From a bacterium (GTDB taxonomy: Bacteria > NPL-UPA2 > JAUVJM01), in the NCBI GenBank assembly GCA_030606215.1, contig JAUWGW010000003.1:1-64000 (forward strand): a stretch of DNA of 64,000 bases. Reading direction: 5' to 3'. The first letter of the stretch is position 1. Every line of letters begins with the position of its first letter. A model generated the notes under the pieces. It searched no databases and was not told the DNA's origin. It saw only the letters and a program-made list of their open reading frames with translations. A program made the translations under genes and the position numbers. Shown piece by piece: positions 16,289 through 55,907 of the stretch.

Positions 16289-16290
16289 AA

Positions 16291-16482
16291 ATCAAACCTT
16301 TGCATTTTTTCGCTTCCGCGTTATTTCACCCTGCCTTACAGCAGGGTCGGCAAAATCTGCACTTCGTCGGGGCAGAAATTAAACTCGTCGCAGAGCTCCT
16401 CAGACATAATTTCTGCTATTTCCCGACTATGTTTGATTTTGCCTAAAATAACGAAAGTCGCTCAAAAATACAGAGGTTTGAT
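16291..16482 (+). repeat. Fold-back repeat element, copy A (MITE-like)
   Basis: A 192-base unit bounded by imperfect terminal inverted repeats: ATCAAACCTTTGCATTTTTT at the left and its near reverse complement ending AGAGGTTTGAT at the right, extending inward to GTTATTT/AAATAAC. An inner hairpin (CCCTGC...GCAGGG) and a longer inner inverted pair (GGGGCAGAAAT with ATTTCTGC) are also present. It matches copy B at 23428-23640 along most of its length, including the shared phrase CACTTCGTCGGGGCAGAAAT. It carries no gene of its own. The rightmost part stays open into rsmE in the same frame as copy B does into lptE. Confidence 0.8.
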
Positions 16483-16495
16483 TGAGAAAGTTCAA

Positions 16496-22398: not shown

Positions 22399-22500
22399 AT
22401 GCCTTGTGGTAGAAAAAGGAAAAAAGCCAAGATGGGGACACATAAAAGGAAGAAGAGATTAAATAGGGACAGGCATAAGAAGAAAGGTAAGAAGCGGTGA
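22399..22500 (+). CDS. 33-residue mS38/bS22-like (AURKAIP1/COX24-domain) ribosomal protein
   Basis: A tiny, extremely basic protein reading MPCGRKRKKAKMGTHKRKKR then ending with KKKGKKR. The core, 'KRKK.KM..HKRKKRL...RHKKK', is the AURKAIP1/COX24 motif of mitochondrial mS38 and the bacterial bS22-like small-subunit proteins, known in Bacteroidetes/Chlorobi-type genomes and related phyla. A GGAAGGGG ribosome site precedes the ATG, and its TGA overlaps the GTG start of the next gene by four bases. It would bind 16S rRNA near the decoding centre. Such genes are commonly missed because of length. Confidence 0.8.
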   Translation: MPCGRKRKKAKMGTHKRKKRLNRDRHKKKGKKR

Positions 22501-23417
22501 CCCGCTACAAGATGCAAATGTTCAGTAGAACAAACATAATAAGTGTTGGAATGGTTGCGTGCCTTCTGGGTTTTTTTATTGCATTTACTTGCGTTGTAGA
22601 AGGCAGCAGTGAAGAAAAAGCGGAGCAGGAATTCGCAGAAACCCAGAGGGCTCTTGATAAATGTGAGATTGGATTTTCAGATGGGATAAGAAGATACAGG
22701 AGGGTTATCAAAAAATATCCTGAGAGTGAGGTATCTGCTCGCGCCTTTTATGCGATAGGGGACCTGTTTGAAAAACTTGGTGAAATGGAGAAAGCATCCA
22801 CAGCTTATATGAGTGTTATTGAAAGTTACCCTGACAGTGGGTGGTTCTCGCCTGCTGTTCAGGATTTATATCGTATAGGGTGTTATCTATTCAATCTAAA
22901 AGAAGAAAGATTCTTTAAAAATACTTATGAGCAGGCAGGGAAAATTTTCAGAAAGATTTTAGAAGTTGCTCCCTCTATTGAGAATGCAGGTGAAATCCAG
23001 TACAGGGTAGGCTATTGTTCCCTGGAACTTGGTGAGTATGAAGGGGCAGCTTCTGAATTTCAGAAGGTTATTGATAGCTATCCTGAAGAACCATGGCTTG
23101 AGAAAGCGGAGCATAAATTGGGGGTAAGTTTCTTCAAACAGTCCCTGCCAGCACAGCGCGACCAGACAATGACTGATAAGGCAATCGTTCAGTTTACTCG
23201 CTTCCTGAGAGAATATCCTGAAAGCCAGTTTGTTGAAAATGTGAAAGAGAAGTTATCTATCTTAAGGGAGAGAACAGCGGAGAAACTCTACTCTATTTGC
23301 TTGTTTTACCTGAAGCAGAAAGAAAAAAAGGCGTTTTTATTTTACTGTCAGGAACTAATACATCGTTTCCCTGATACTGAATGGGCAGAATTGGCAAGAG
23401 AACTTCTGGAGACATGA
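22497..23417 (+). CDS. BamD-like TPR protein (outer-membrane assembly)
   Basis: A 306-residue exported protein starting at GTG 22497, which overlaps the small ribosomal gene (GTGA). A signal segment at about 12-32 ends AFTC, which could be a poor lipobox. TPR units follow, each with the 'YP.S' turn typical of BamD/YbgF: RRVIKKYPESEVSARAFY, SVIESYPDSGWFSPAVQD, KVIDSYPEEPWLEKAEHK and RFLREYPESQFVENVKEK; the C-terminus RTAEKLYSICLFYLKQ...HRFPDTEWAELAREL matches the end of BamD. BamD acts with BamA to insert outer-membrane proteins. It sits upstream of lptE, another envelope-assembly gene. CpoB/YbgF is the main alternative. Confidence 0.75.
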   Translation: MTRYKMQMFSRTNIISVGMVACLLGFFIAFTCVVEGSSEEKAEQEFAETQRALDKCEIGFSDGIRRYRRVIKKYPESEVSARAFYAIGDLFEKLGEMEKASTAYMSVIESYPDSGWFSPAVQDLYRIGCYLFNLKEERFFKNTYEQAGKIFRKILEVAPSIENAGEIQYRVGYCSLELGEYEGAASEFQKVIDSYPEEPWLEKAEHKLGVSFFKQSLPAQRDQTMTDKAIVQFTRFLREYPESQFVENVKEKLSILRERTAEKLYSICLFYLKQKEKKAFLFYCQELIHRFPDTEWAELARELLET

Positions 23418-23427
23418 TACCGTTGTG

Positions 23428-23640
23428 ACTAAACTTTTGCATTTTTTTCGCTCCGCGTTATTTTCCCCTGCCTCTTTGGCAGGGTCGGCACAATCTTCAC
23501 TTCGTCGGGGCAGAAATCAAACTCCTCCCCCACCACTGCACGCAGTGATGGGGTCGTCAAACATAATTTCTGCTTTATCCCGACTACGTTTGCTTCTGCC
23601 TAAAATAACGAAAGTCGCTCAAAAAACGCAAAAGTTTAGT
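23428..23640 (+). repeat. Fold-back repeat element, copy B (MITE-like)
   Basis: 213 bases bounded by terminal inverted repeats ACTAAACTTTTGCATTTTTT (left) and the reverse complement of ACTAAACTTTTGCGTTTTTT (right), continuing inward to GTTATTTT/AAAATAAC with a few mismatches (about 35 bases per arm). It carries CCCTGCC/GGCAGGG and GGGGCAGAAAT/ATTTCTGC inner pairs and an extra CACTGCACGCAGTG palindrome lacking in copy A. The last 50 bases read LLPKITKVAQKTQK in the lptE frame. Confidence 0.85.
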
Positions 23641-24123
23641 TTCTTTATTCTTGTGGTTTTTGCAGTTTTAATTTCAGGTTGCGGATATACAATCCATTCC
23701 GGGGTGAGAAGCGATATTGCAACAATTAATATCGCGACCTTTGAAAACAGAACATTTGAGCATGGGCTTGAAGCAGAGCTATCAAAAGTCCTTACGAAAG
23801 AGTTTATTCTTGACGGGGCATTCTCTGTGGTGGATGTTTCCGAAGCTGATGTTCAGTTAAGTGGTGAGATTGTTGAGTATGTTCTGGAACCTTATACTTA
23901 TGGTGTGGATGAATCAGAGGTTGAACAGTATAGAGTGCGTATCCAGGCAAGCGTCTCCCTCCGACAGGTTGGCGGAAAAGAAGCCATGTGGGAGGAATTA
24001 ATGGAGGGGGATGCCACATATTACCTGAGCGGTGCTCTTGCCAGGACAGAAGAAGAAGCGTCCCGTCTCGCTCTTTATGAACTTGCGAAAAAGATTGTTT
24101 CAAGAACTGTGAGAGCATGGTGA
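23590..24123 (+). CDS. lptE: LptE-like LPS-assembly lipoprotein
   Basis: LptE plugs and supports LptD in moving lipopolysaccharide to the outer leaflet. With TTG 23590 as start, residues 1-30 form a lipoprotein signal (basic n-region, hydrophobic core FILVVFAVL) and lipobox LISGC with the lipidated Cys at 31, followed by GYTIHSGVRSDIATINIATF, a classic LptE opening; the rest shows VDVSEADVQLSGEIVEYV and ends AKKIVSRTVRAW. The frame continues upstream through the repeat to 23425, but that part is repeat sequence. Even the chosen n-region derives from repeat copy B. It is four bases before holA. Confidence 0.85.
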   Translation: MLLPKITKVAQKTQKFSFFILVVFAVLISGCGYTIHSGVRSDIATINIATFENRTFEHGLEAELSKVLTKEFILDGAFSVVDVSEADVQLSGEIVEYVLEPYTYGVDESEVEQYRVRIQASVSLRQVGGKEAMWEELMEGDATYYLSGALARTEEEASRLALYELAKKIVSRTVRAW

Positions 24124-37170: not shown

Positions 37171-37206
37171 AAAATAGCGAAAGTCGCTTACAAATGTAAA
37201 AGTTTG
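37171..37206 (+). repeat. Right-end remnant of the fold-back repeat (copy C, partial)
   Basis: AAAATAGCGAAAGTCGCTTA followed by CAAATGTAAAAGTTT resembles the right arm of copies A and B (AAAATAACGAAAGTCGCTCA ... AAAAGTTT). No left arm is seen, so this is a truncated copy lying before recJ. Confidence 0.6.
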
Positions 37207-46618: not shown

Positions 46619-47290
46619 ATGAGAACAAAGCGTAAGAGAAGATTGGGCGTTTTACCGTCGACAAACGGATTTACTTTAATTGAGCTTTTGGTGGTCATCG
46701 CTATCATCGCTATACTGGCGGCGATGTTGCTTCCGGCTCTTCAGCAAGCCAGAGAGAAGGCACGGCAGGCGGTATGTATGAATAATCTTAAGCAGGTTGG
46801 ATTGGCTTTGATAATGTATTGTGATGATTATGATGGCTGGTATCCAACAATATACTATAGTGGATCTTATCCATATGCCGACCAATGTGAACCTTTCCAT
46901 TGGTATGCAAATGGTGGCTTCTTGGAATACCTGAACCTGGAGCCATTTGTTCATAAGAAAGGAACGGTGATGAATTGCCCTAGCCATCCTGGCGGTAACT
47001 GGGGAGGAGCCTTCTCGACTATATACATAAGTTATGCTGGCAACAAATTCCTTGGCTCTGACCAGGATGGACGGAGAAAAGAGGCTAGTTTCAGAAAGTC
47101 TTCTCTCACTCTGGGTTTTGCTGACGGGTCAGATTATCGTGCCCGGGCAGGGCTGCTCAACTTTGACTACCGCCACGGCAGTCGTATAAACGTGCTCTAT
47201 TTAGATGGACATGTCAGCACAAGGACGCCGGAAAGCATACCACCAGACTGGGCTGATAGATTTGACCCTTTTTGGGATTCCCAGAATTAA
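46619..47290 (+). CDS. Pseudopilin-like protein (type IV pilin N-terminus, DUF1559-like) 1
   Basis: 223 residues. Class III prepilin signal: basic leader, then [20 protein letters not shown] with Gly before Phe at the cleavage site and Glu at mature position 5. The body has [20 protein letters not shown] and the terminal [15 protein letters not shown], as in the DUF1559/H-X9-DG-type proteins of Planctomycetes, Lentisphaerae and relatives. Processed by a prepilin peptidase and exported by a type II-like machine. The 142-base 5' segment is almost the same as in the gene at 55275. It precedes a giant secreted protein by 18 bases. Confidence 0.9.
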
Positions 47291-55274: not shown

Positions 55275-55907
55275 ATGAGAAAATTGATGAGAGGGAATAC
55301 AAGAGTAATACCGTCGACAAACGGATTTACTTTAATTGAGCTTTTGGTGGTCATCGCTATCATCGCCATACTGGCGGCGATGTTACTCCCGGCTCTACAG
55401 CAAGCCAGAGAGAAGGCACGACAGGCGGTATGTATGAATAATCTTAAGCAGACAGGATTAGCGTTCATGCTGTATGCCCAGGATTACGATGAACAGTTGC
55501 CTGCGGCATACATGGCGGATGATGACTACAAGGCGTGGACTTACAAGCTTTACAAATATGGTTATCTAAACGATCCGCCGGGGGTTCTTATATGTCCCAG
55601 TTTCTATCCCTATCGCTGGGGTGCTGAGGCAACAGCTTACAGAACGTATGGGATGCGTCTGGTAGACGACACGTACCATTATTCATTCAAAACTACGCAA
55701 AACCCGAGTGGTCAATGGGTACTTGCTGATAGCGTGTATACTGGCGGCAGTCCCCCCACACAGAATTACATCATAGTCTCAACCAGTAGCACACAATGTG
55801 CTCATACAAGACATACGGGCAAAGCTGATGTCCTTTTTATGGATGGCCATGTCGAAGGCAAGCACAGACAATTCTTTCTTGACGATGGTTACCCCGTTTA
55901 TCCCTGA
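55275..55907 (+). CDS. Pseudopilin-like protein (DUF1559-like) 2
   Basis: 210 residues from ATG 55275 (GGGGGAGG seven bases upstream; a longer frame to 55239 is not favoured). Prepilin signal [20 protein letters not shown] and [20 protein letters not shown] are as in the gene at 46619, and the first part of both genes is nearly identical in DNA. The rest differs: [20 protein letters not shown] and a terminal [10 protein letters not shown] with H and DG. It stands before the second giant secreted protein. Confidence 0.9.

Follow-up and report, generated by a model that had tools for sequence, protein, structure and literature searches.

A palindromic MITE-like repeat apparently inserted into the 5' end of lptE and encoding the n-region of its signal peptide

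Can a mobile repeat supply part of the export signal of a conserved cell-envelope protein? The question is raised by a locus in the 64,000-nucleotide stretch analysed here (the window), where one copy of a repeat, copy B (23428–23640, + strand, 213 nt, a long imperfect palindrome), lies between a bamD-like gene and lptE. The bamD-like gene (22497–23417, +, stop TGA at 23415–23417) encodes a YfiO/BamD TPR lipoprotein (Pfam YfiO, 1.6e-24; NCBIfam BamD TIGR03302, 9.3e-37, over the cut-off). From a GTG at 23425 the reading frame is free of stops across all 71 codons of copy B and continues into LptE, so that lptE can be annotated at 23425–24123 (+, 232 aa), with the lipobox cysteine as residue 86. 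An earlier note on this DNA had suggested that copy B encodes the n-region of the LptE signal peptide and that the hydrophobic core and lipobox come right behind it, and the sequence bears out both points. The n-region LLPKITKVAQKTQK plus FS occupies 23593–23640 (+), as read from the sequence and the listing of start codons; the LLPKITKVAQKTQK codons (23593–23634) are entirely within the repeat, and F-S (23635–23640) is its outermost arm. Directly after the arm follows FFILVVFAVLISG-C, and the core with its lipobox, FFILVVFAVLISGC, spans 23641–23682 (+), with ISGC inside this segment and the Cys codon at 23680–23682. Read by eye, this signal peptide has its core and ISGC in place, and an n-region obtainable solely from the repeat. 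PKITKVAQKTQK falls in the portion of the repeat that is conserved between copies.

The repeat is not a chance resemblance, as a search of the whole genome at the DNA level matched copies A and C to B at E = 4e-40 to 2e-42, and a covariance model built from A, B and C (R1) recovered all three at E about 1e-56. Copy A (16290–16483, +) lies between dnaJ and rsmE. Copy C, the third full copy of this genome, is on contig C9 between what we take to be an Na/Pi-transporter-like gene and a phosphoenolpyruvate-carboxykinase-like gene (pckG). The two copies that had been noticed in the window are thus real, and the family is larger, with three full copies in the genome plus remnants. Copies are 188–215 nt long and about 80% identical to one another. 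In the one genome of the same family that was compared, G001 (sister genus; MAG CSMAG_454, of a series from a cold-seep catalogue, PMC10491686), R1 found five full copies plus one short, and it found distant versions in three further genomes of the phylum. Rfam 15 gave no match at gathering score in the window.

Copy B is predicted to fold as RNA at -79.8 kcal/mol (z -8.7), and A and C are similar. Across eight copies, 92.6% of pair cells were standard and 14 pairs were changed on both sides, 11 of them in the outermost helix; the covariation score was reached by none of 500 shuffles. The outer arms of copy B, ACTAAACTTTTGC and GCAAAAGTTTAGT, are 13 bases each and perfectly complementary. Between copies the arms are only 41–57% identical, vs 88% for the core, and they pair within their own copy (86.6% of cells). 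This combination of arms that vary by copy yet remain self-complementary with a near-constant core could be explained by compensatory change or by copying of an arm at insertion. An origin of the arms as inverted copies of flanking target sequence was considered and seems unlikely, as the likeness between copies near the GCATTTT end is too high for purely host-derived arms. No consistent direct repeat, sought by eye as a target-site duplication, was seen at the copy ends. With a length below 500 nt, no transposase gene and several unrelated gene-pair sites in two genera, copy B belongs to a MITE-like family of non-coding, palindromic repeats in the phylum. Every copy examined lay in sense orientation between co-directional neighbours, a short way past the stop codon of the preceding gene, with a typical gap of about 20–27 nt to the next start.

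The protein behind copy B is LptE (Pfam PF04390 at residues 99–228, E 1.1e-11, 45.9 bits, above the curated cut-off of 23). Its mature part (23680–24123, +) is 70% identical to the orthologue in G001, which itself matches PF04390 with 49.7 bits. With dN at 0.20 and dS saturated, the comparison indicates that the coding part is under purifying selection. LptE is required for LPS assembly in the bacteria studied. Because the gene is conserved and no second lptE match was found anywhere in the genome (1.52 Mb, 34 contigs), LptE here is probably functional.

Where, then, does it start? The earlier note had proposed comparing lptE starts in relatives that lack the repeat, and this comparison gave short signal peptides and a start at the bamD stop. 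In relatives of the phylum the LptE signal peptides are about 20 residues long, ranging over about 17–27, and free of the repeat; in G001 the signal peptide begins MSWVGRTSVILISLVLIPGC. The bamD stop is followed immediately by the lptE ATG in G006 and G008, and by a GTG in G005. Since lptE of relatives begins at or right after the bamD stop, ATG 23414, which overlaps that stop here (ATGA), is probably the ancestral lptE start. This putative former start (23414–23428, +) now reads MIPL and then TGA (23426–23428), a stop completed by the first base of copy B. We infer that the genus of the window once had an empty, repeat-free lptE site. Excision of 23427–23641 would give an in-frame MIPLFFILVVFAVLISGC, which we set aside as weak support because the result depends on the boundaries chosen (removal of 213 nt would not give it) and has a 1-in-3 chance of arising.

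We enumerated the in-frame lptE starts and judged Shine-Dalgarno sites by duplex energies. The usual start codons in frame are GTG 23425, TTG 23437, TTG 23476, GTG 23545, ATG 23548, TTG 23590 and GTG 23653. The only Shine-Dalgarno-like site near any of them is GGAG (23408–23411, +), 2 nt from ATG 23414 and 13 nt from GTG 23425; the latter codon would put 85 residues ahead of the cysteine, far more than in the signal peptides of relatives. Inside copy B, ATG (23548–23550, +) and TTG (23590–23592, +) would give 45 and 31 residues, to and including the cysteine, but neither these nor any other usual start codon within the repeat has a Shine-Dalgarno site by duplex energy. Strong sites of this kind are common in the genome, with half of 32 genes of the window at -8 kcal/mol or better, but among genes in tight operons several are without one. 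A non-standard candidate is ACG (23626–23628, +), a site that is ATG in the tolB remnant of the same genome and also in copies C and D. We dropped the idea that this ACG is a mutated ATG, as T is what most copies or remnants of this genome have at the site but C is usual in the sister genus, and C may therefore be ancestral.

Use of a start beyond 23640 was the finding that the earlier note had named as fatal to its claim. Two such codons are present in frame, ATT 23647 and GTG 23653, the latter being the only usual start between 23640 and the lipobox, and relatives' lptE does begin close to the cysteine. It could accordingly be supposed that LptE is initiated at one of these weak or non-standard codons and that the repeat encodes nothing. 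However, they leave just 11 and 9 residues before the cysteine, none of them basic, as compared to the 17–27 residues usual in the phylum, and neither has a Shine-Dalgarno site. We regard a late start as quite improbable. As the basic n-region is encoded by the repeat for every other plausible start, any exportable LptE made here must, on this reading of the sequence, take its charged signal-peptide start from repeat-encoded residues; the n-region is predicted to come from the repeat unless LptE has no n-region at all.

An open frame through the repeat is by itself no evidence of translation, as the other copies show. Copies A, G1a and G1f are in frame with rsmE, yebC and a presumed purQ, and each of these genes starts downstream by itself (MIRF..., MSGHSKW... 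and MKKIAIIQYPGSNC), in alignment with relatives or with its family. Being in frame is a 1-in-3 accident. Read in the KITKV frame, most copies lack stops at the right end, and A, B, C and G1c lack them over the full length, with stops in the other full copies; the left half is read in differing frames by copy, so that the right-end (I/L)LPKITKVA is the only shared peptide. The stops and the differing left halves led us to reject the possibility that the repeat itself is protein-coding, and codon-position variation in the tail gave no clear coding signal. What sets the lptE case apart is the lack of a usable later start.

The tolB gene (identified by the NCBIfam TolB equivalog) offers a parallel. 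In G001 the interval between it and a tolA-like gene holds a full copy, and the frame reads KITKVAHKTQKSAVRNLSCAILIVLCAARVGAVDLYLDV. The in-frame tail is KITKVAHKTQK, and the only start after it is a TTG at the hydrophobic stretch; the tolB n-region in the sister genus is thus, as judged from the reading frame, encoded by the same repeat. The orthologous tolB of the present genome, 73% identical, retains only the tail, ACGAAAGTCACTCACAAAATGCAAAAG (tail remnant ACGAAAGTCACTCACAAAATGC), and its CTCACAAAA spacing is otherwise confined to the tolB copy of G001. Here ATG CAA AAG of the remnant stands at the start of the signal peptide and opens MQKLANSSLFVVGLIVMFTGSLWA. An alternative in-frame ATG upstream, inside the tolA-like gene, would still take in the tail, and the next ATG in frame comes only towards the end of the hydrophobic core. 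A weaker case than tolB is the bamD-like gene, which may also start in a tail remnant (CGCTACAAGATGCAAATGTTCAGT, 22503–22526, +, 15 nt identical to remnant D).

Tail remnants also survive as plain spacers, at gatA-gatB, the cysS-like gene and recJ, and persistence of the tolB tail is therefore in itself no proof of selection. Tail-only remnants of about 40 nt make up entire stop-to-start spacers (L091 1042–1063; L103; L096; and, as a possible remnant between secDF and recJ, window 37177–37197, +). In gatA and the cysS-like gene the TAA stop codon comes from a tail remnant.

Taken together, we favour a reading, to which we give a probability of roughly 0.68, in which insertion of copy B cut off the old lptE start and LptE now begins in the repeat or at its edge, with an n-region provided by the repeat. 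The original start of lptE would have been ATG 23414, which overlaps the bamD stop. The repeat would then have inserted about ten bases beyond this ATG, severing the start and leaving MIPL and a stop, while the stop-free frame of its right end happened to be in phase with the remaining signal peptide. Translation would now start within the repeat or at its edge, with the basic peptide PKITKVAQKTQKFS serving as n-region. GTG 23425 is a candidate start, as it is within reach of ribosomes re-initiating 8 nt past the bamD stop and has the only Shine-Dalgarno site; the other candidates are ATG 23548, TTG 23590 and, among non-standard codons, for instance ACG 23626. From this arrangement we infer both the sequence of steps and the start codon used. 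The insertion could have survived since what an n-region requires is positive charge and not a particular sequence.

Possibly the gene was instead damaged by the insertion, so that the protein is not made, or the assembly captured a minority allele. The severed ATG and the internal starts without a good Shine-Dalgarno site would fit such damage, but the coding sequence is undamaged and conserved (dN 0.20, dS saturated), the gene is the genome's only lptE match and studied bacteria need its product for LPS assembly. Moreover, as the repeat copies are only about 80% identical to each other, the insertion is probably not recent. We find damage just as improbable as a late start. A different matter is whether anything was gained. 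The repeat-encoded peptide may be no better than the original n-region, a tolerated accident with the same physical picture and no new function, and this has a fairly good chance of being true. The open tail frame is a general property of the repeat, other copies are in frame without being needed, and n-regions are flexible in sequence. That lptE and tolB both depend on the tail, and that the tolB tail was kept in both genera, mildly suggests retention instead, which is offset by the tail-only remnants persisting at sites that encode no protein. Of the exaptation proposed in the earlier note, the repeat-encoded n-region therefore stands, with tolB as a parallel; a gain does not, as a tolerated insertion in a flexible n-region fits equally well, and a repeat within a signal peptide has a precedent in YPO1552. 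The broader idea that the right end is a recurrent n-region donor, recruited and kept at lptE in this genus, at tolB in both genera and possibly at bamD here, with an ATG in place of the ACG of the tail furnishing tolB of this genome with a proper start codon, appears doubtful to us and is offered tentatively.

The precedent is the Yersinia RU-2/YPAL repeat, which makes up part of the signal peptide predicted for YPO1552 (Delihas 2007, PMC2759123). YPO1552 is a putative exported protein without an assigned role, whereas the proteins here are LptE and TolB, with the n-region alone derived from the repeat. Rickettsia palindromic elements (RPE; Ogata et al. 2000, reviewed in PMC2229807 and PMC10969869) lie in frame within conserved proteins. 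Like the present repeat they are small, palindromic and mobile, with stable stem-loops and an open frame, and are tolerated in conserved proteins. They differ in being mostly inside the protein body, as compared to the protein start here, where the repeat forms the n-region of a signal peptide, and in having a conserved in-frame peptide; in our family only the right-end peptide is shared and the frame is not conserved along the repeat. ERIC/RU-1 and Correia/NEMIS, likened by description, are likewise intergenic palindromes of 100–200 nt with a stable fold and co-transcribed with their neighbours, but unlike theirs the outer arms here differ between copies while being complementary within each copy. 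A literature search, for which most subscription papers were beyond reach, gave no report of a MITE supplying the n-region of LptE or TolB. What is new is thus the repeat family, its position over the beginning of a conserved envelope gene and its second appearance at tolB; a repeat in a signal peptide is precedented. If our reading is true, this is a clear-cut example of a selfish palindromic repeat turned into a working export signal of conserved cell-envelope proteins, and a natural test of the minimum sequence information needed for an n-region and of gene survival after loss of a start codon. It also calls for caution in the annotation of gene starts, since a frame that runs open across a repeat can mislead and was no more than an accident in three other copies.

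Comparison of the two genera illustrates the mobility of the family. Between fusA and yebC there is a 25-nt gap here vs a 205-nt copy in G001, and dnaK and dnaJ, which overlap by 4 nt here, are separated by a repeat copy in G001. Conversely, G001 is without this repeat before lptE, rsmE or pckG. The site between the tolA-like gene and tolB is common to both genera, and some insertions therefore predate the genus split. The G001 gaps that lack this repeat carry other palindromes, e.g. GTCCCGAAAGCATTCGGGAC and CAGGCTAAAGCCTGCG (L016 2002–2142; L111, upstream of pckG; L084). Two other repeats were also observed. In the window, a 183-nt direct repeat (46653–46835 and 55309–55491) forms the conserved N-terminal portion of two pseudopilin-like genes. 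On contig C123 of G001 (L060 1501–1551), a leuA/cimA-like ORF terminates in a perfect 25-base inverted repeat, and the next ORF also ends in RGSSLAL.
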